This document shows positions 2,168-22,007 of a stretch of DNA of 64,000 nucleotides, in pieces. The position numbers were made by a program, and so were the translations under genes. The stretch is taken from positions 1-64,000 of the forward strand of contig WGNI01000004.1 in the NCBI GenBank assembly GCA_016124655.1, written 5' to 3'. Position 1 is the first letter of the stretch. Every line of letters begins with the position of its first letter. The notes below the pieces were generated by a model. It made no database searches, had not been told where the DNA came from, and saw nothing but the letters and a program-made list of their open reading frames with translations. This stretch comes from Alphaproteobacteria bacterium. GTDB lineage: Bacteria > Pseudomonadota > Alphaproteobacteria > Caulobacterales > Aquidulcibacteraceae.

Positions 2168-3166
2168 ATGGCAGGCGTTTTCGTGTCTTACAAGCGCGGC
2201 GACGAGGCGCTCGTGGAGCGGCTGGTGACGGCGCTGCGCGGCGCGGGCCTCGCGGTCTGGTGGGACAAGGACATTGCGCCCGACGCGCCGTGGGAAGACA
2301 CCATTGAGCGCGAATTGCAGGCCGCGAAAGCGGTGATCGTGGCGTGGTCGAAGGCTTCAGTCGATAGCGAAAACGTGAAAGCCGAAGCGCGGCGCGCCCG
2401 CGCGCAGGGCAAGCTCGTGCAATGTTACATTGAAGCATGCGAGGCGCCGCTGTTTTTCGGCGAGCGCCAGGGCGTTGATCTTTCCGATTGGCGCGGCGAT
2501 GCGCAGGACCGGCGGTTTCAAACCGTCGCGGCGGCGGCGCGCGCGCTGATCGAAGGCCGCGCGCCGGCTGTTGCGGTTGCGACCGCGCCGCGCAAACGCG
2601 CGAAATGGCCGCTCGCTGCGGGCGCCACGGCGCTGGTCGCGGCGATCCTGATTGGGATTGCGCTGTTTGGTTTTCCCGGCGGACAGATTGCACGGGAGGC
2701 CGAAACCCCGATCGCGAGCGACGGAGACGTCGCCGCTTCGGCCGCGCCGGCGCCTTCCTCAAGTCTTGCGCCAAGCGCTGCTTCGACGCCCGCGCTGACG
2801 CCGGGACAGCCGCATCGCCTCGATATCGCGCCCGGCTCGGCGGTCGATTTCGATTCCGGAGCGGTTTCGACCGCAATCACCGATGCCAGCGATTTTGTGC
2901 TGACAGGACGCGCGGCGGACGGCTTTTCCATTGCAACCGCGAACGATGGCGCGCTCATCGGCGTCGCCGCCAGCGGACCGGCGACGCCTGCGGCGTGCGG
3001 CACGGAGCTGACGCGGCCGACAATCTCGTGGCAGATTCCAATGGCCAATGACGTCGGCGAAATCCAATGCTTCAGAACCAATGCCGGGCGCGAGGGCGCG
3101 CTGACGCTGGAGCGCGGGCGCGCCGGCTATGACGGCGCTGTCGTCACCATCCTGCTTTGGCCGTAG
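2168..3166 (+). CDS. TIR-domain protein with one membrane segment and a C-terminal extracytoplasmic domain
   Basis: 332 residues. Residues 1-110 form a TIR domain: beta-A AGVFVSYKRGDE, then WWDKDIAPDAPWEDTI, then VIVAWSKASVDSENVKAEA. Glu73 sits where TIR NAD-hydrolases carry their catalytic glutamate. A basic stretch (PRKRAKW) precedes a hydrophobic segment at about 145-168. After it come an Ala/Ser/Pro linker and a ~110-residue domain with two cysteines, predicted to be outside the inner membrane. The arrangement suggests a membrane-tethered TIR effector or signalling protein with an external sensing domain. No antiphage partner such as a CBASS cyclase, Thoeris ThsA or short Argonaute is nearby. 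ATG 2168 follows AAAAGGGG. Confidence 0.82.
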   Translation: MAGVFVSYKRGDEALVERLVTALRGAGLAVWWDKDIAPDAPWEDTIERELQAAKAVIVAWSKASVDSENVKAEARRARAQGKLVQCYIEACEAPLFFGERQGVDLSDWRGDAQDRRFQTVAAAARALIEGRAPAVAVATAPRKRAKWPLAAGATALVAAILIGIALFGFPGGQIAREAETPIASDGDVAASAAPAPSSSLAPSAASTPALTPGQPHRLDIAPGSAVDFDSGAVSTAITDASDFVLTGRAADGFSIATANDGALIGVAASGPATPAACGTELTRPTISWQIPMANDVGEIQCFRTNAGREGALTLERGRAGYDGAVVTILLWP

Positions 3167-8241: not shown

Positions 8242-8742
8242 ATGGCTGAAGCGTCCCTGACCGACCTCCCCGCCGACAAGGCGGACCGCTACGCCGCGTT
8301 GCGCCAAGAGATCGCGGCGGTGGTTGCAGGCGAAACAAGCGTGACCGCGCGCTACGCCAGCGCTGCGAGCCTTTTGGCGCATGGGTTTCCGGAAACATTC
8401 TTGTGGACCGGATTTTACGTGGTCGATCCGCACAAGCCGGAGGAACTCGTCGTGGGCCCGTATCAAGGCACGCTGGGATGTTTGCGCATTCCGTTCGGCA
8501 AGGGCGTGTGCGGCGCGGCGGCGGCGCAGCGGCGCACGGTCATCGTGGCGGACGTGCACGCCTTTCCCGGCCATATTGCGTGCGATTCCCGATCGAATTC
8601 CGAGATCGTGGTTCCGGTGTTCGATCGCGAGGGCGCGCTGGCGGCGGTGCTTGATGTCGACAGCGCGCAATTGAGCGCGTTTGACGCGGCCGATCAGGGG
8701 GGCCTGGAAGCGATCTGCGCGGACCTGTTGCGGCTCGATTAA
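8242..8742 (+). CDS. msrC: Free methionine-(R)-sulfoxide reductase, GAF type
   Basis: 166-residue cytosolic GAF-domain protein. Cys80, Cys90 and Cys114 reproduce the spacing of the three redox cysteines of E. coli fRMsr (84/94/118). The surrounding blocks are diagnostic: GTLGCLRIPFGKGVCGAAAA and VHAFPGHIACDSRSNSEIV. It reduces free L-methionine-R-sulfoxide using thioredoxin. It lies 22 bases after the acyl-CoA operon on the same strand and may be co-transcribed or have its own promoter. Its end overlaps the 3' end of the convergent ABC ATPase by four bases. Confidence 0.95.
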   Translation: MAEASLTDLPADKADRYAALRQEIAAVVAGETSVTARYASAASLLAHGFPETFLWTGFYVVDPHKPEELVVGPYQGTLGCLRIPFGKGVCGAAAAQRRTVIVADVHAFPGHIACDSRSNSEIVVPVFDREGALAAVLDVDSAQLSAFDAADQGGLEAICADLLRLD

Positions 8743-9506
8743 GCGACGGGCTCGAAGCCGGCCTGCTGCGCCGCGAGATACATGCCGATCACCGGCGCGG
8801 GATCGCCGATCGCGATCAAGCGGCCGCGGTCCAGCCAGGCGACCTTGTTGCACATCGACTTCATCAATTCGGTGGAGTGCGTGGCGAGCACGACGATCTG
8901 CGTGACACCCATCATCTGCTGCAAACGCTGCTGCGCGCGCTGATAAAAATCGGCGTCGCCGGTACCGAGCCATTCGTCGAGCAGCAGCACTTCGCCATGG
9001 ATGGCGGTGCACAGCGCAAAGGCGAGCCGTGCGCGCATACCTTCGGAATACGTGCGCACGGGCATGTGGATGAACGCGCCGAGACCGGTGAATTCCGGCA
9101 CCTCCTCCTTGGCGCGGCGCACTTCGGCGTCGCTGGCGCCAAGCAAGCGCAACGGCAATTCGATGTTGTCGAAGCCCGACAATTCCGGATTGACGCCCAG
9201 GCCCTTGTCGATCAGCGGCAGGACGCGACCTTCGATGCGCATGCGGCCCTTGGTGGGGTGCGCGAGCCCCGCCAGAAGCCGCAGCATGGTGGACTTGCCG
9301 GAGCCGTTGCGGCCGACAAGGCCGAGGCGATCGCCGGGCCCCAGATGAAACGAAATCTCCGACAGCGCCGCGATCTCCACCGATCCCACGCCGAGATCGA
9401 TCTTGGAGCCGACAAGCTGGCGCATGACCGTCATCTTCAGCGAGCGCCCAGTGACCTCAAACACCGGGTAGCTGAAGGAGACGTTGTCAAGTTCAACCGC
9501 CGCCAT
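8739..9506 (-). CDS. Polysaccharide ABC exporter ATPase (Wzt/TagH-like)
   Basis: 255 residues with a single nucleotide-binding domain. The N-terminal VSFSYPVFEVTGRSLK stretch is typical of capsule, O-antigen and teichoic-acid exporter ATPases. It has Walker A (GLVGRNGSGKST), signature (RTYSEGMRARLAFAL), Walker B (EVLLLDEWLGTGD) and H-loop (VLATHS). It lacks the C-terminal carbohydrate-binding extension of O9a-type Wzt, so it resembles KpsT/RfbE-type ATPases. It is downstream of, and 6 bases from, the permease at 9513, and together they should export a completed glycan across the inner membrane. Confidence 0.9.
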   Translation of the reverse strand: MAAVELDNVSFSYPVFEVTGRSLKMTVMRQLVGSKIDLGVGSVEIAALSEISFHLGPGDRLGLVGRNGSGKSTMLRLLAGLAHPTKGRMRIEGRVLPLIDKGLGVNPELSGFDNIELPLRLLGASDAEVRRAKEEVPEFTGLGAFIHMPVRTYSEGMRARLAFALCTAIHGEVLLLDEWLGTGDADFYQRAQQRLQQMMGVTQIVVLATHSTELMKSMCNKVAWLDRGRLIAIGDPAPVIGMYLAAQQAGFEPVA

Positions 9507-9512
9507 CGCCCC

Positions 9513-10292
9513 TCACAGCCACGTAAAGATGCGCTTGCGCGTGGCCGACAAGGTCACCAGCGACAGCCCGACAAGACCCCAAACCAAGCCGAGCGCGACG
9601 TACCAGTTTATCAGTTCCGGAGGATGGCCCTGGATCGGCGCGCGCACGAGTTCGAGGAGATGATAGAAGGGATTCGCATGCACGATCACGGGCGGAAGGC
9701 GGCCCTGATCCGGCATCCAGATGATCGGCGTGAGGAAAAACGCCAGCTGCAATACCGAACCCACAACCTGGGTTAGGTCGCGAAAGCGCAGGCAGATCGG
9801 CGAGACGACCAGGGCAAAGAAAAAGGCATATGCGGTCAACAGCGCCATGCCGGGCGCTGCGTAGAAGAGCGCCATGGAGGGGCGGAAACCAAAGACGACC
9901 ATCACGCCGCCGACGACCAGCGCATTGTGAAAGAAGATCACCAAGTTGCGTTGGATCATGCGCGCCACGAGCACCGGCGCGGGCAGCGGCACGGCGCGCA
10001 GATGGCTCTCCGCCTCGACCAATACGCCGCATCCGTCATTCATCGACCCCGCAATGAAGTTCCAGACCAGGAAGCCTGCAGCCAAGTAAAACAGATATTC
10101 CTGGAAGCTTCTTTCAAAGACATTGCCGAAGACAAAGGACATGCCGATGATCGTGAGCGACATCGAAATGCTGATCCAGAACGGGCCGATCAGCGAGCGG
10201 CGATAGCGCATCATGATGTCTTGGTTCGCCATCAGGAACCAGGTGCGCCAGCGTGCGAACACCGCGCCAAAGTCGCTGATCACGCCTGACAT
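9513..10292 (-). CDS. ABC-2 type polysaccharide export permease (Wzm-like)
   Basis: 259-residue inner-membrane protein with about six hydrophobic segments. The family-typical cytoplasmic motif MMRYRRSLIGPFWI is near residues 27-40 and NPFYHLLELVRAPIQG is near the C-terminus, as in Wzm, KpsM and TagG permeases. It partners the ATPase at 8739. The 173 bases upstream (10293-10465) separate it from the TIR-like pair on the same strand and show no other gene or clear promoter. Confidence 0.92.
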   Translation of the reverse strand: MSGVISDFGAVFARWRTWFLMANQDIMMRYRRSLIGPFWISISMSLTIIGMSFVFGNVFERSFQEYLFYLAAGFLVWNFIAGSMNDGCGVLVEAESHLRAVPLPAPVLVARMIQRNLVIFFHNALVVGGVMVVFGFRPSMALFYAAPGMALLTAYAFFFALVVSPICLRFRDLTQVVGSVLQLAFFLTPIIWMPDQGRLPPVIVHANPFYHLLELVRAPIQGHPPELINWYVALGLVWGLVGLSLVTLSATRKRIFTWL

Positions 10293-10465
10293 CCCCGCTC
10301 CTGCTTCGCGCCGCTTTCTGGCGACTGCGCCTGCACCGTTACACGCGCTCGTCCAAAGTCCCCTGCCGGACGCGGAGCTGGCGGGCCCAGCTTCATGCTT
10401 GCGCGCGCGCGCGGCGACTCGTGAAATAGCCTAACTTGCGACCTCGCCTCAAGATTGCGCCGCTG

Positions 10466-11134
10466 TCAGCCGTTTGGAGGGATAGCCTGGGATTGTGACA
10501 AATCTTCCGCGCGTTCGCGCTGGATCAGCATCGAGGCCCATGGCGCCAGGCCGGCGACGACGATCGCCGCGCCGATGATCGCGCCAATCAGAAAGCCCCA
10601 GCGCCCGGCGGCGCGGCGCACTTTCATTTCGGCTTCCGATGGCCGGGCGCGCGGCGGCGGCGATGCGGCTGGCCTGGACGGTGGTGCAGCTGCGGTGCGC
10701 GCGGGCGCGGGCGCCGGCGGCGGCGGCGCGACCCGGGGCGGCGGCGGCGCGGTCGAGGACGATACGAAAATGCCGAGCTTCAGGCTGCGGGCGATTTCCG
10801 CGATCTGGCCGGCGGCGGACTCCAGATCATCGCTCATGGCGATGACGGGGGTGCGCCCTTCACTGGTGCCGACCGGCGGGCGGCGATTGTCCCACACGAG
10901 CAGCGCTGCGCGGCGCGGCTGCGCGTCGAGCGCGTCTTGCAGGCGGACGCCGACGCTGTCTTCAGAGCGCGCGGTCCACACGCCGAAGACCTGCATCTGG
11001 TTGCCGAACTGGAGCGGCTGCGCCTCATCCTCCGGCGCGGGGCACGGGATGGCGTTCATGCCCTTCAGCGCGCGCGCCAGGGTCGCGGCGAAATCGGCAT
11101 CCGCTTTGGCGTGCAACAATACGGTGTCGACCAC
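10466..11134 (-). CDS. Degenerate TIR-like domain protein with C-terminal transmembrane helix
   Basis: 222 residues; I do not recognise a named family. Residues 1-105 look like a reduced TIR fold: TVLLHAKADADFAATLARAL (strand A and helix A), then MQVFGVWTARSEDSVGVRLQ and RRAALLVWDNRRPPVG. The catalytic Glu of the S-x(5)-E helix is absent. A Pro/Ala-rich linker spans about 125-168, and a strong hydrophobic helix at about 180-204 is followed by a short polar tail. It aligns end to end over its N-terminal domain with the product of the gene just upstream (11194-12114), so the two are tandem paralogues. Position beside the Wzm/Wzt genes suggests a membrane-associated regulatory or scaffolding role, which is inference. 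Confidence 0.6.
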   Translation of the reverse strand: MVDTVLLHAKADADFAATLARALKGMNAIPCPAPEDEAQPLQFGNQMQVFGVWTARSEDSVGVRLQDALDAQPRRAALLVWDNRRPPVGTSEGRTPVIAMSDDLESAAGQIAEIARSLKLGIFVSSSTAPPPPRVAPPPPAPAPARTAAAPPSRPAASPPPRARPSEAEMKVRRAAGRWGFLIGAIIGAAIVVAGLAPWASMLIQRERAEDLSQSQAIPPNG

Positions 11135-11193
11135 CCGGCCTTCCCCCTTGAGCGAGCGCTCGGGCTAGCTCAGCCGCCAGACGCGCGTCCAGC

Positions 11194-12114
11194 TCAGATG
11201 ACGGATGAACCCTGCTCCGGGTTCCATAGCTCCGCATCGTCCGGCGCGGAGACGGGCGTCGCCAAGGCCGGGACCGAGGCCGTGTTCAGGTCAGGAAGCG
11301 CTTCGATCGGCGCGGGCGAGGAGAAGTCCGCCACGCGATCCAGCGGCGCCGTCGCCGCGGGGCTGGGGCGCCAATCCTGGCGCGACCAGGAGTCGAGCTG
11401 GTTGACGAACGGATCGGTCGCTTCGCGCATCGCATCGAGCTGCGCGGCGGCGGCGGCCAGCCGATTTTGCACATCGGCCAATTCGTTCTGATCGACGGGC
11501 GCGACGGCGACCTCTTCTTCGCCCCAGTCGATATCGGGGGCGGCGGCCACCTGGCTGAGCACGCGCATGTCTTCAGGCGCGGAGGCCGCGGCGGCGTCGC
11601 GGGGGCCGGCCGCGCCAAGCTGATCCACTGCGCCGAGCGCCACCGCGCCGCCGACGCCGAGAAATGCGACGCTCGCGGCTGCGCCCTTCATCAGGCCGCC
11701 GGCGAAGGCGCCAGACGCGCGCCGCGCAGCGCCAGGCTCGCGCGGCTCCGCCGGGCGAGCGGGTTGCGCGGCGCGGGCGTTGCGCGCGGGCGCGGCATCG
11801 GCAGCGCGGAGCGCTTCAAGATCATAGACGACCGTGCGATCGCGCAGCGCGGCGGGCAGCGGCGCGTCATCGCACGCGCAGATCAACAGCGCGCCGGCGT
11901 GACCGGCGGCGATATCGGAAAACACGCGGCCGAGGCCTGCGTCCTGCGCAACGCGAGACCAGGCCAGCCACACGCTGATCTGCGGGCCGAACGCCATCGC
12001 GCGCGCGTCGCTCGACAGCGGAGACAGCAAGGGACGGACAGAAGCGGAGGCATCGCTGATGGCGCGGGCGCGGTCGGCGTCGCCTTCGGCGTAGAGCAAC
12101 ACAACGCTGGCCAT
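11194..12114 (-). CDS. Degenerate TIR-like domain membrane protein, paralogue of the downstream gene
   Basis: 306 residues. The N-terminal ~105 residues align with the protein at 10466-11134: VVLLYAEGDADRARAISDAS, then AFGPQISVWLAWSRVAQDAG and GALLICACDDAPLP. An Ala/Arg/Pro linker leads to a hydrophobic helix at about 138-165. The extra ~140-residue C-terminal part is acidic and contains a heptad-like NELADVQNRLAAAAAQLDAM segment, likely a short coiled coil. No TIR catalytic Glu is visible. The 59-base gap to the paralogue suggests one transcript. The C-terminal region would lie on the far side of the membrane from the TIR-like part. Confidence 0.6.
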   Translation of the reverse strand: MASVVLLYAEGDADRARAISDASASVRPLLSPLSSDARAMAFGPQISVWLAWSRVAQDAGLGRVFSDIAAGHAGALLICACDDAPLPAALRDRTVVYDLEALRAADAAPARNARAAQPARPAEPREPGAARRASGAFAGGLMKGAAASVAFLGVGGAVALGAVDQLGAAGPRDAAAASAPEDMRVLSQVAAAPDIDWGEEEVAVAPVDQNELADVQNRLAAAAAQLDAMREATDPFVNQLDSWSRQDWRPSPAATAPLDRVADFSSPAPIEALPDLNTASVPALATPVSAPDDAELWNPEQGSSVI

Positions 12115-12355
12115 CGACGCGTCTCCTCAATTCCCGCCATCGTATCCGAAAAGCGGCATCCGCGCAGCAAAAAAGTCCCCTGCCGCGCGGGATTTGACGC
12201 CGCTGCTCCCCAAGCGGGCGGCATGACGGGACATACCGGGCGGGCGCCGCGCTGACCAGCCCCATTGCGTGAAATTTCCAGATGAAATCAGCGCTTGCAC
12301 GCGAACGCCGCCGCGCGGCATGCACGGGCGCCCGGCGCATGAGCAGGAGGTGGCG

Positions 12356-13576
12356 ATGACGGACGTGCGAGACCGACTCGGGTTCGGCGCGGTTGCGTTT
12401 GCGGCGCTCATGGCTTTGGCGCCGGCAGCGGCCGTTGGCGGCGGCATGGCGCTGGCGCCGATCCAGGGGCTCGCGGGCGTGCTCGCCGCGCCGTGGCGGC
12501 GGCTGTTGCGCGCCGCGATGCGTCACTGGATGGTGGTTGTTTCCATTGCGCTTTTCGTCGGCTGGATGGGAATTGCCGCCAGCTGGTCGCCGTCGTCGAG
12601 CGCTGTTGAGCAAGCCGTGAAGCTTGGCGCGCTCGCGATCACGGCGTTGCTGCTGATCGCCGGCGCCGGCGGCGCGCACGAGCGCGATCGCGCGCTGATC
12701 CGCGCGGCGTGCATGGCGGCGGTCGCGCTCACGGCGCTGATGCTGCTCGTCGAGGCGTTCGCGGACATGCCGATCAACCGGCTCGACGAGGCGGCGAACG
12801 TCGATCCCGTCAAGCTCATGCGCAACCCCGCGAAGGGCGCGAGTTTCCTGGTGTTGATGCTGTGGCCGGCCATGGGCGCGCTGATCGGCGGGGCGCCGTG
12901 GGAGCGCGGCGCGTGGAAAATCCTCTTCGCGCTCAGCGCGGTGTGTGCGCTGCAGTTCGGCATGGAGGCCAATGCGCTGGCGCTGGGCGTGGGCCTGGTC
13001 GCGTTTCTGATCGCGCTTTCAGCGCCGCGGTTCGCACTGATCGCGCTGGGGCTCGGGCTTGCGGGCTGGCTGATCGCAGCGCCGTTCGTGACGCCGGTGA
13101 TCATGGCGCAGGAGGCGCTGGTGGCGCGGCTGCCGGATTCCTGGGCGATCCGCGCGGAGATGTGGACGTTTGTCAGCGAGCGCATCCGCGAGGCGCTCGT
13201 GATGGGTCATGGGATGGACGCGGCGCGCACGATTGAAGGCCAGAGCGAGGTGCGCGGCATCGTGTTCAACCTCGTTTCGCTGCACCCGCACTCCGCGAGC
13301 CTGCAGATCTGGTACGAGCTCGGCGCGGTCGGCGCGGGGCTTGGCGCGCTGGCGCTGATCGTCGGCGGGTTCGCGGCGGCGGCGGGACTGGCGAAGCAGC
13401 GCGAAGCGGCCGCGGCGGTCGCGGGCGTGATGGCCAGCGCGGGCGTGATCGCCAATGTCAGCTTCGGCGCATGGCAGGAATGGTGGCTTTCGGGAATCGT
13501 GATCGCGGCGGCGTGCGCGAACGCGGTGCGGCGCGCGAATTCGGCGGATTCGTTCAATCCGTCGGCAGCGCCTTGA
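12356..13576 (+). CDS. O-antigen ligase/polymerase-like membrane protein
   Basis: 406-residue polytopic membrane protein with about ten hydrophobic helices. The long periplasmic loop contains GHGMDAARTIEGQSEVRG and the HPHSASLQIWYELGAVGAG segment typical of the Wzy_C/WaaL family; Arg and His in this loop are important in that family. ATG 12356 is preceded by GCAGGAGG; a 29-residue upstream extension is unlikely. It probably joins or polymerises undecaprenyl-linked glycans in the periplasm, and whether it is ligase or polymerase cannot be told. Its last 23 bases overlap the 3' end of the convergent AGE-family gene. Confidence 0.82.
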   Translation: MTDVRDRLGFGAVAFAALMALAPAAAVGGGMALAPIQGLAGVLAAPWRRLLRAAMRHWMVVVSIALFVGWMGIAASWSPSSSAVEQAVKLGALAITALLLIAGAGGAHERDRALIRAACMAAVALTALMLLVEAFADMPINRLDEAANVDPVKLMRNPAKGASFLVLMLWPAMGALIGGAPWERGAWKILFALSAVCALQFGMEANALALGVGLVAFLIALSAPRFALIALGLGLAGWLIAAPFVTPVIMAQEALVARLPDSWAIRAEMWTFVSERIREALVMGHGMDAARTIEGQSEVRGIVFNLVSLHPHSASLQIWYELGAVGAGLGALALIVGGFAAAAGLAKQREAAAAVAGVMASAGVIANVSFGAWQEWWLSGIVIAAACANAVRRANSADSFNPSAAP

Positions 13577-14699
13577 TGCGATCCTCCAGTCGCAGCAGCT
13601 CCGCGAACGCCAAGAAGACGTGATAGAACGTCGAGGCCGGCACGACTTTGGAGAGCGGCGCGCCGTTGGCGTCGAAATGATCGATCCAAAGGCCGGGAAC
13701 GTCGGTGTTCAGGTAGCGGTTCAGCAAGAGATTTGCGGACTCCGACACGGCTGCGCGCGGATCGGCGCCGTTCAATTCATACAGCGCCAGCCAGCCCTTG
13801 ATGCGTTCGGTGTTCGGCCAGGTGCGGGAGGATGAATCGACGATCGCTCCATCCTCGCGCACGACCATGCGCGTGGCTTTGGATTGGGGATCGACGCCAT
13901 AGGTTTCGGCAAACGAAACCAATTGCGCCGCGGCGGAACTGACGTCTTCTCCTGACACCTTGGCGAATTGCGCGAGAATCCAGGCCCATTCCAGTTGATG
14001 GCCAGGCTCGGCAAGGCGTCCCTCTTCGCCCGGCGCGCGGGACCAATCGTCTTGAAAATATTCGGCCAGCGTGCGGCCGTTGAAGAATTTCGTGAGGAAT
14101 AGCGCATAGATTTCGCGCGCGAGATCGAGATAGCGCGGCGCCTGGGTGGCCTCGAACGCTGCAAGGCTCGCCTCGAACAGATGCATGTGCGGATTTTGCA
14201 GGCGCCAACCCTGCATCGGCTTTTCATGCAGGAATCCGCCGGCGGGATGACGCATCGCGTGGGTGATGAAGTCGTAGGCCAGATCCATGCCGCGCCGCGC
14301 ATCGGCGTCGCGCGTGGCGCGATAGGCCCAGGAAAACGCAAACAGCACGAAAGCGAGATCGTAGAGATCGGGCGTGGCGTCGGCGACGCTCCCGTCGCGA
14401 TTCAGGCATTTCGCAAAGCCGGGATCCGGGCCGAGATAGGCTTGGGTGAGCAGGAATTGGACGCCGTGGCGGCACAGCGCGCGGCCGTCGTTCCAGCCGA
14501 GCGCTGCGGCGTGCGCAAAAACGTAGGTCTGCCGGCAGGCCACGCGCGTGCGCTTGCGCGGCGCATCGGTGGGCGCGCCGGCGAAATCCAGTTCTTCATG
14601 GAAGCCGCCATGCGCGCGATCGACGCCGCGTTCGGCCCAGAGCGGCAGGGCGACCTGAAACATCCAGGCGCGCACGGCGTCAAACGGCGGATTTACCAT
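13554..14699 (-). CDS. AGE-family sugar isomerase/epimerase
   Basis: 381 residues starting MVNPPFDAVRAWMFQ, with GGGAGG before the ATG at 14699. It has the (alpha/alpha)6-barrel pattern of N-acylglucosamine 2-epimerases and mannose isomerases: RVACRQTYVFAHAAALGW, PAGGFLHEKPM, NPHMHLFEASLAAFEAT, EPGHQLEWAWIL and RTWPNTERIKGWLAL, with conserved His residues in the barrel. It is divergent from manC, so a plausible role is mannose/fructose (or phosphosugar) isomerisation feeding GDP-mannose synthesis. This is inferred from context; cellobiose or GlcNAc epimerase activity is also possible for the family. Confidence 0.85.
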   Translation of the reverse strand: MVNPPFDAVRAWMFQVALPLWAERGVDRAHGGFHEELDFAGAPTDAPRKRTRVACRQTYVFAHAAALGWNDGRALCRHGVQFLLTQAYLGPDPGFAKCLNRDGSVADATPDLYDLAFVLFAFSWAYRATRDADARRGMDLAYDFITHAMRHPAGGFLHEKPMQGWRLQNPHMHLFEASLAAFEATQAPRYLDLAREIYALFLTKFFNGRTLAEYFQDDWSRAPGEEGRLAEPGHQLEWAWILAQFAKVSGEDVSSAAAQLVSFAETYGVDPQSKATRMVVREDGAIVDSSSRTWPNTERIKGWLALYELNGADPRAAVSESANLLLNRYLNTDVPGLWIDHFDANGAPLSKVVPASTFYHVFLAFAELLRLEDRIKALPTD

Positions 14700-14828
14700 C
14701 CAAGCGGCCTCCCATCCCGGCCCGTCTTGGTACGCAGCGTCGCCGCGCGCGTCGAGGCCCGAGGCTTGCTTGCGTCGTTGCGTGGGCGCGCGTACCACGC
14801 GCCGGCGGCGACACGGGGACCATGAGGC

Positions 14829-15893
14829 ATGGCGCAGACGCGCATCCTTCCAGCAATCATGTCGGGCGGATCGGGCACACGGCTGTGGCCGACGTCCACC
14901 GATGACCGGCCGAAGCAATTCCATGCGCTGGGCGGCGCGCGCACGCTGATCCAGGATACGATCGCGCGCGTGCAGATGGACGCTGCGGGCCTCTCGTTCG
15001 CGGCGCCGATGATTTTGTGCAATGCGCGCCATGGCGCGCTGGTGGAGGCGCAGCTTGCCGCGATCGGCGCAACCGCAAGCGCGATCGCGCTGGAGCCCGT
15101 GGGGCGCAACACGGCTGCGACCGCGGCGATCGCGGCGCAACTGGCGCTGGAGATCGACCCGGAAGCGCTGGTGCTACTGTTGCCGGCGGACCATGTCATC
15201 GCCGACGCAGATGCGTTTCTCGACGTGGCAGCGCGCGCGGCGCCGATCGCGCGCGAGCGCATCGTGACGTTCGGCATTGCGCCGTCGCGGCCGGAAACCG
15301 GCTATGGCTACATCAAGCATGGCGCGCCGCTGACGGAGGGCGTGTTCGCGATCGAGGCGTTCAAGGAAAAACCGCAGCGCGATGTGGCGCAGCGCTATCT
15401 CGATGACGGCGGCTATAGCTGGAACGCAGGCATGTTCCTGTTTTCGCCGCGCGTGTTGTTGCAGGAATTCGCCGGCGCGGCGGACATCCGCGATGCAGCG
15501 CTTGCCGCCTTGGCGGCGGCGCCGCGCGACGGCGTGCGCATCGCCTTGCCGGACGCGCTGTTTGCGCAGGCGCCATCCGAGCCGCTCGACATAGCGGTGA
15601 TGGAGAAGACGCGGCTGGGCGCGGTCGCGCCGTGCGATATCGGCTGGGCCGATGTCGGCTCGTGGGCGGAGATCTGGCGGCTCGCGCCGCAAGACGGAAA
15701 GGGCAACGCAGTGAGCGGCGACGTCATCGCGCATGACGCGTCCGGTTTGCTGGTGCGCAACGACAGCGGCTTGAAGATCGCGCTGGCGGGGGTGTCCGAT
15801 CTCATTGTCATCGCGACGGACGAGGCAGTGATGATCGTGTCGCGCGAGCGCGCACAGGACGTGAAGAAGCTCTGGGAGCTGGCGCGGAAATAG
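14829..15893 (+). CDS. manC: Mannose-1-phosphate guanylyltransferase
   Basis: 354 residues. The nucleotidyltransferase signature is IMSGGSGTRLWPTSTDDRPKQ. Further family segments are EPVGRNTAATAAIAA, LLLPADHVIADAD, RPETGYGYIKHG, VEAFKEKP-like EAFKEKPQRDV, SWNAGMFLFSP and DIGWADVGSWAEIW. It makes GDP-mannose from mannose-1-phosphate and GTP. It lacks the C-terminal phosphomannose-isomerase domain of bifunctional ManC/AlgA, which fits having a separate isomerase (the AGE-family gene) divergent from it. The product probably supplies the surface glycan exported by Wzm/Wzt. Confidence 0.93.
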   Translation: MAQTRILPAIMSGGSGTRLWPTSTDDRPKQFHALGGARTLIQDTIARVQMDAAGLSFAAPMILCNARHGALVEAQLAAIGATASAIALEPVGRNTAATAAIAAQLALEIDPEALVLLLPADHVIADADAFLDVAARAAPIARERIVTFGIAPSRPETGYGYIKHGAPLTEGVFAIEAFKEKPQRDVAQRYLDDGGYSWNAGMFLFSPRVLLQEFAGAADIRDAALAALAAAPRDGVRIALPDALFAQAPSEPLDIAVMEKTRLGAVAPCDIGWADVGSWAEIWRLAPQDGKGNAVSGDVIAHDASGLLVRNDSGLKIALAGVSDLIVIATDEAVMIVSRERAQDVKKLWELARK

Positions 15894-21650: not shown

Positions 21651-22007
21651 TTAGAGCGCGGAGCCGCCCCGGGCGTGGCGCGACAGCAGCGCGACCGCGC
21701 CGCTGGACGCGGCCCGATGGCGCTCGATCGTGGCTTCGGCGGCGTCGATCTGGGCTTCAATAGCGGCCAGTTCCGCAGCCGAAATGGCGTCCGTCGTCGC
21801 GACGACGGGGAACAGCGAGTCCGGAATGCGGTCCTCGACCGGCGCCGGCTCATGGGCGATGGCGCGGCTGGTTTGCAGCGAAGGGGCGAGAGCGCCAAGG
21901 GTGATCGCGGCCACGCCCAGAGCCAGGCTGCCCAGAACGGCGCCCAACGGTGATCTGTGGCGGAACCCGCCCTGCGCCTTCGCGTTGCCCTTCACTTGCG
22001 TAGCCAT
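21651..22007 (-). CDS. Small membrane-anchored hypothetical protein
   Basis: 118 residues, not recognised. A basic N-terminus (residues 1-19) precedes one hydrophobic segment at about 20-42 (LGAVLGSLALGVAAITLGAL). A polar part follows with an Ala/Glu-rich helical stretch (ISAAELAAIEAQIDAAEATI). The likely topology is cytoplasmic N-terminus with the rest in the periplasm. It sits directly upstream of the glycosyltransferase and divergent from galU, so a role in envelope glycan synthesis is possible but unsupported by sequence. Confidence 0.65.
   Translation of the reverse strand: MATQVKGNAKAQGGFRHRSPLGAVLGSLALGVAAITLGALAPSLQTSRAIAHEPAPVEDRIPDSLFPVVATTDAISAAELAAIEAQIDAAEATIERHRAASSGAVALLSRHARGGSAL

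Follow-up and report, generated by a model that had tools for sequence, protein, structure and literature searches.

Genes designated as A and B lie in tandem on the minus strand of contig WGNI01000004.1 (assembly GCA_016124655.1) of an alphaproteobacterium from the family Aquidulcibacteraceae, directly upstream of genes for a Wzm/Wzt-type polysaccharide exporter. The stretch analyzed, referred to as the window, comprises the first 64,000 nucleotides of this contig. Both genes encode membrane proteins of a family that, judged from sequence comparison, descends from bacterial TIR domains and lacks their catalytic Glu. The family-wide tie of these dead TIR membrane proteins to surface-glycan loci is, at the level of genome comparison, a new result; a literature search, which most subscription journals lay outside, turned up no account of TIR proteins at such loci. 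The best explanation, with a probability of about 0.5, is that A and B represent a non-enzymatic, TIR-derived membrane adaptor or scaffold of surface-glycan assembly or export, a role proposed from the genome context. An earlier note on this DNA had described two tandem open reading frames (ORFs) for degenerate TIR-like membrane proteins, with the exporter genes downstream on the same strand, and this arrangement was confirmed by ORF and Pfam analysis.

TIR descent and loss of the catalytic glutamate

AlphaFold2 models of A and B were built on ten sequences, and three metagenome-assembled genomes with related loci fed the alignment. The confidence score (pLDDT) of the N-terminal domain is 90–96 over most of A and 81–95 in B. 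The elements follow in the order strand-helix-strand-strand-helix-strand-strand-helix, which is a TIR-like arrangement minus helix alphaB; both models pass from strand B straight to strand C and do not have the five helices of a TIR. In VIA-align, the top row for the A model was a TIR, and bacterial TIRs made four of the five best rows, with Z of 8.9 for a Bacillus cereus TIR, 8.7 for BtTir, 8.4 for PdTIR, and 8.3 for TcpB. Foldseek E-values for A were 5e-3 at best. For the B model, Z was 11.8 with CENP-M, 10.9 with TIRAP, 10.8 with receivers, and 10.6 with the plant RPS4/RRS1 TIR. The fold check proposed in the earlier note (structure prediction and Foldseek) thus returned no unrelated fold, as A matches bacterial TIRs best and B is flavodoxin-like.

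For settling the TIR descent, profile comparison is better than the structure models. Neither A nor B was matched by the TIR profile of Pfam (TIR_2, PF13676), even with E allowed up to 1. The profile of the family matched an intermediate group of TIR proteins with a transmembrane (TM) helix, adjoining ispA/dxs, at 2e-10, and this group in turn gave 3e-15 against the genome's canonical TIRs in profile–profile comparison. Compared directly, the family and the canonical TIRs matched at 9e-5, while the best of 100 column shuffles gave 0.058 and reversed profiles about 0.3. The A-type profile also picks up a TIR_2 protein of its own genome at 4e-7. Family members retain the first TIR motif (H/Y8...D12) and, in the third strand, the W-S. 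By profile comparison, the N-terminal domain of the A/B family is derived from TIR.

The intermediate group consists of TIR-linker-TM proteins conserved beside ispA and dxs in many genomes of this bacterial family (L113 8858-10318, L116 8551-9654, L117 9467-10735, and L129 7593-8675). They carry E or D at the catalytic column and stand between canonical and dead TIRs.

At the catalytic column, Glu is absent from all 29 family members (F65 in A, Q66 in B, and one gap), whereas seven of eight canonical TIRs of the genome have it. The absence of Glu from A and B had been claimed in the earlier note, and neither protein has the Glu in helix alphaC by which NAD-cleaving TIRs are recognized. As part of the joint adaptor reading, and at the same even odds, the A/B family would have lost the enzymatic function of its TIR ancestor. 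Between genomes G021 and G025, the N-terminal domain of A gives ratios of nonsynonymous to synonymous substitution rates (dN/dS) of 0.22 and 0.10, and that of B gives 0.04 and 0.28. Because values of 0.04–0.28 indicate purifying selection, the A/B-type genes are, by this measure, maintained and not decaying. As intact homologues are under purifying selection in other genera, the two ORFs are more than chance.

Surface-glycan loci and pairing in related genomes

A- and B-like proteins were sought blind to neighbouring genes, which gave 22 loci in 14 genomes. Twelve of these are within 10 kb of Wzy_C or window-type Wzm. Canonical TIR_2 loci of these genomes number 150, and one of them, the window's own TIR gene, has such a neighbour (Fisher P = 8e-12, a value that is too small because loci of related genomes are non-independent). 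Several of the remaining loci are adjoined by Polysacc_synt_2 (three loci), UDP-sugar epimerase, GlmM, or ManC genes, and members also adjoin rmlABCD and GlmS genes. The family thus goes with surface-polysaccharide and sugar-metabolism genes and not with the ordinary TIR genes of the genome. The 'decoy of TIR signalling' offered as one possibility in the earlier note has no support from this distribution nor from PADLOC, where no match was found. From the same proposal, the adaptor stands as the best available guess.

The order TIR-like gene, wzm, wzt on one strand occurs in the window and in G001, G074, and G083; in G010 and G036, the TIR-like protein is encoded 1 to 3 kb from wzm. When the comparison was started from Wzm, a TIR-like protein was found at 6 of 15 window-type loci and at none of 11 loci with more distant Wzm (P = 0.02); as these loci were picked for Wzm, this is weaker than the neighbour-blind test. 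A separate subfamily of about 177 aa, 50–55% identical, is coded immediately downstream of wzm-wzt in G063, G195, and G174. These loci span three different families of the order, and in two of three a methyltransferase gene intervenes. In G174, the gap is 3 bp, and the Wzt there has a glycan-binding Wzt_C domain, unlike the Wzt of the window. Among 385 genomes of the class searched, no clear member was found outside the order, with one marginal match (E = 9.5e-4). In L109, a DUF2793 gene (Pfam; 9733-10830) separates the TIR-like gene from wzm. Similar-looking ORFs were seen, by eye only, in glycan regions of L135 (652-1593), L033, and L039.

In related genomes, the pair and its glycan-locus setting are conserved; the lack of conservation that the earlier note named as a refutation was not seen. 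The A-B pair is present in the same order, with genes about 4 to 35 bp apart, in relatives of one other genus. Two genomes carry the pair twice, with one copy directly ahead of transketolase and the other at a glycan locus, where it adjoins a Wzy_C ligase, a glycosyltransferase, and a flippase-like gene. The B proteins form a supported clade (approximate likelihood-ratio test 99.8, bootstrap 93), and the B of the window clusters with glycan-linked B proteins (94.5/73); the A/B duplication therefore predates these genera. The A proteins were not resolved as a clade in the same tree.

Wherever A has a B partner (eight proteins), its tail carries a W-x-P motif, while the five A proteins without a partner lack it; ten such motifs were observed, while 2.5 are expected from shuffles. 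The glycines of the G-x-x-x-G motif in the TM helix are invariant in both A-type and B-type proteins, including G140 and G144 in the A-type alignment. The conserved pairing, the invariant G-x-x-x-G, and the partner-linked W-x-P point to A and B acting jointly in the membrane. In L035 (9808-10071), B is cut down to 70–87 aa, with little beyond the TM helix, and A is of full length there.

In one genus, the A-B pair is followed by a transketolase gene on the same strand, possibly as an operon and apart from the glycan-linked pair (L031 11953-15562, L032 7128-10757, L033 8284-11966, and L034 6427-9973). These transketolase-linked pairs are kept in synteny across four genomes.

Genes A and B and their surroundings in the window

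Gene A codes for a protein of 306 aa from an ATG start and gene B for 222 aa from a GTG start (Table 1). The two proteins share a layout of an N-terminal domain of about 110 residues, a linker, a single hydrophobic helix, and a C-terminal tail. As stated in the earlier note, the N-terminal domains can be aligned with each other (E = 4.7e-17 between A-group and B-group profiles) and the tails differ, with 25 aa in B and 143 aa of net charge −18 in A. The 'VW-x-AW' segment given there for both proteins is present in A (VWLAW), while B has VFGVW. The TM helix is flanked by charges of +3 before and −3 after in A and +4 before and −1 after in B. Because the positive flank is on the N side, an N-in topology is predicted for both, with the TIR-like domain in the cytosol, which agrees with the earlier proposal of one TM helix and a cytosolic domain each.

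Table 1. Position of genes A and B, their parts, and adjacent glycan genes in the window
Feature	Coordinates	Strand	Evidence
Gene A: TIR-like domain, Ala/Pro linker, one TM helix, acidic periplasmic tail	11194..12114	-	ORF, topology, AlphaFold2 model, homologues
A residues 1-115: TIR-like domain without alphaB, F65 at catalytic-Glu column	11770..12114	-	AlphaFold2, VIA-align
A residues 142-163: TM helix, G140xxxG144 at its start	11626..11691	-	Hydropathy and charge; AlphaFold2 confidence low here
A residues 209-245: predicted tail helix (coiled coil of the earlier note)	11380..11490	-	AlphaFold2 pLDDT about 70-90
First W-x-P motif in A tail (W248)	11365..11373	-	
Second W-x-P motif in A tail (W297)	11218..11226	-	
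Gene B: TIR-like domain, Pro/Ala linker, one TM helix, 25-aa tail	10466..11134	-	ORF, AlphaFold2 model, homologues
B residues 1-120: flavodoxin-like alpha/beta TIR-like domain, Q66 at catalytic-Glu column	10775..11134	-	AlphaFold2, VIA-align
B residues 179-197: TM helix, G180xxxG184xxxG188	10544..10600	-	Hydropathy and charge
wzm-like permease gene, next gene downstream of B	9513..10292	-	PF01061 3.8e-10; NF050109 1.9e-55 but below its cut-off
wzt-like ATPase gene without C-terminal glycan-binding domain	8739..9506	-	PF00005 4.6e-21, no Wzt_C
O-antigen-ligase-like (Wzy_C) membrane protein gene, divergent neighbour	12269..13576	+	PF04932 3.1e-9
GlcNAc 2-epimerase/mannose-isomerase-like gene, same glycan region	13554..15140	-	PF07221 3.5e-71
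ManC-like mannose-1-phosphate guanylyltransferase gene	14829..15893	+	PF00483 and PF22640

The genes A and B are 59 bp apart, B ends 173 bp before wzm, and wzt is 6 bp beyond wzm. Plausible ribosome-binding sites precede all four genes. The codon composition of the two ORFs is coding-like, with G+C content at third codon positions of 0.83 and 0.82 versus 0.59 and 0.58 at second positions. Co-transcription of A and B is inferred with spacing as the sole basis for operon structure, because no promoter-like site was found in a scan of the region around A/B and terminator-like sites are at chance level. The neighbours are recognized as a Wzm/Wzt exporter by matches above cut-off to ABC2_membrane (PF01061) and ABC_tran (PF00005), while galactan-export equivalog models match these exporter genes only below their cut-offs. 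A and B themselves had no meaningful match in Pfam, NCBIfam, PADLOC, or the phage-protein families of PHROGs; the PADLOC defence models were compared with A, B, and two relatives at E up to 0.1.

A canonical TIR_2 protein of 332 aa with the catalytic Glu is also coded in the window (2168-3166, plus strand). The 2.94-Mb genome (G000) has 21 TIR_2 domains and related genomes have 9 to 25, an unusually rich TIR complement. A small protein without Pfam match (21651-22007, minus strand) adjoins a glycosyltransferase, and a protein weakly homologous to it (E 9e-4) is coded next to the transketolase-linked pair in L032 (5968-6288).

Putative role and comparison with known systems

In the adaptor reading, A and B would be a co-transcribed paralogous pair in the inner membrane, from a family with a bacterial TIR ancestor. 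The dead TIR-like domain would lie in the cytosol, the single TM helix would cross the membrane, and the tail of A would extend into the periplasm. The TIR-like domains and TM helices of A and B could associate with each other; the A:B TIR-like domains would keep glycan enzymes of the cytosol, or the Wzm/Wzt exporter, bound or in position, and the tail of A may contact periplasmic partners such as the ligase. Besides the overly small Fisher P, several points weigh against this reading. The B model alone is unspecific, as TIR is inseparable there from receiver, SIS, Ras-like, and other flavodoxin-like folds. The TIR-like protein is missing from all the loci with more distant Wzm and, within 3 kb, from 9 of 15 window-type Wzm loci, some of them at contig ends. 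Two members lie beside transketolase or pyruvate kinase with no glycan genes in view. The adaptor function is read from gene neighbourhood, and its partner proteins are putative.

The retained H/Y8...D12 motif and third-strand W-S, kept although Glu is lost, would also suit a pseudo-enzyme acting as sensor, in which the emptied TIR pocket binds NAD, ADP-ribose, or a nucleotide sugar and reports the sugar-nucleotide supply to the exporter or polymerase via the TM helix. Members adjoin nucleotide-sugar genes (ManC, Polysacc_synt_2, rmlABCD, GlmM, GlmS) and transketolase, as such a sensor might. However, the missing helix alphaB alters the pocket and the conserved positions may be structural; a sensor is improbable, and the adaptor or scaffold fits better. 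A regulator of chain length or polymerization similar to the polysaccharide co-polymerases, in which mainly the periplasmic tail and TM helices act and the TIR-like domain is a dimerization knob, agrees with the predicted helix and conserved W-x-P in the tail of A, the invariant TM motifs in both proteins, and the many members beside Wzy_C genes. It is nevertheless unlikely, considering the one TM helix instead of two, a short tail modelled mostly at low confidence, and no match to a Pfam co-polymerase family.

The family could also have a general membrane or sugar-metabolism role and be near glycan genes only through old syntenic regions. Some members by transketolase or pyruvate kinase and the synteny of close relatives are consistent with this, but several genera and three families show the setting again at non-syntenic glycan loci whose enzymes differ (rml, CapD-like, ManC, two kinds of Wzm/Wzt), and such hitch-hiking is quite doubtful. 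TIRs are frequent in defence and the surface-glycan exporter is a common phage receptor pathway, so the pair might guard the exporter and join active TIR proteins against phages in a genome with so many TIR_2 domains and a canonical TIR gene in the same window. This rival has the least support and is very unlikely: PADLOC and the phage-protein families do not match A/B, the transketolase-linked pairs are syntenic across four genomes, purifying selection on the family is strong, and the canonical TIR genes of the same genomes are without this glycan setting.

Extending the adaptor reading, it is tentatively suggested that a lineage of Alphaproteobacteria might have turned TIRs into a housekeeping membrane scaffold, in which heteromeric pairs of dead TIRs, joined through their TM helices to a periplasmic arm, organize how surface glycans are made and exported on the two sides of the inner membrane. 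To our knowledge, work on bacterial TIR domains treats them almost exclusively as NAD-cleaving defence effectors or virulence factors. If true, a selected, catalytically dead TIR branch tied to polysaccharide loci would mean scaffold use of TIRs also in bacteria, with TIR assembly employed without NAD cleavage and outside immunity, and an unrecognized component would be added to Wzm/Wzt-type glycan export. The system is testable, as single gene pairs adjoin defined exporter genes.

Compared with Wzm/Wzt exporters, their accessory proteins, and polysaccharide co-polymerases, A and B occur in the same loci and likewise include a membrane protein with a periplasmic helix; however, they have no sequence match to those proteins, for which a cytosolic TIR-like domain was not found described in the literature searched. 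Wzz-type co-polymerases have two TM helices flanking a periplasmic domain, while A and B have one each. With the enzymatic TIRs of TIR_2 (BtTir, AbTir, PdTIR, TcpB), they share the strand order, first motif, W-S segment, and a profile link via the intermediate group, but differ in having no Pfam match, no catalytic Glu, and no alphaB, and in that a TM helix and a periplasmic tail follow the domain. The ispA/dxs-linked proteins share the TIR domain, Pro/Ala linker, TM helix, and periplasmic part with A and B, but TIR_2 still recognizes them, and their catalytic column holds an acidic residue (E or D). Known TIRs are divided into a scaffold class and an enzyme class (PMC8635717), and the scaffold class fits the A/B family because Glu was lost while the fold was kept. 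The animal adaptors MAL/TIRAP and MyD88 are likewise non-enzymatic TIRs, thought to act by assembly, and TIRAP ranks with the closest structural matches to the B model; A and B differ from them in being without a known signalling partner, bacterial, membrane-spanning, and linked to glycan genes.
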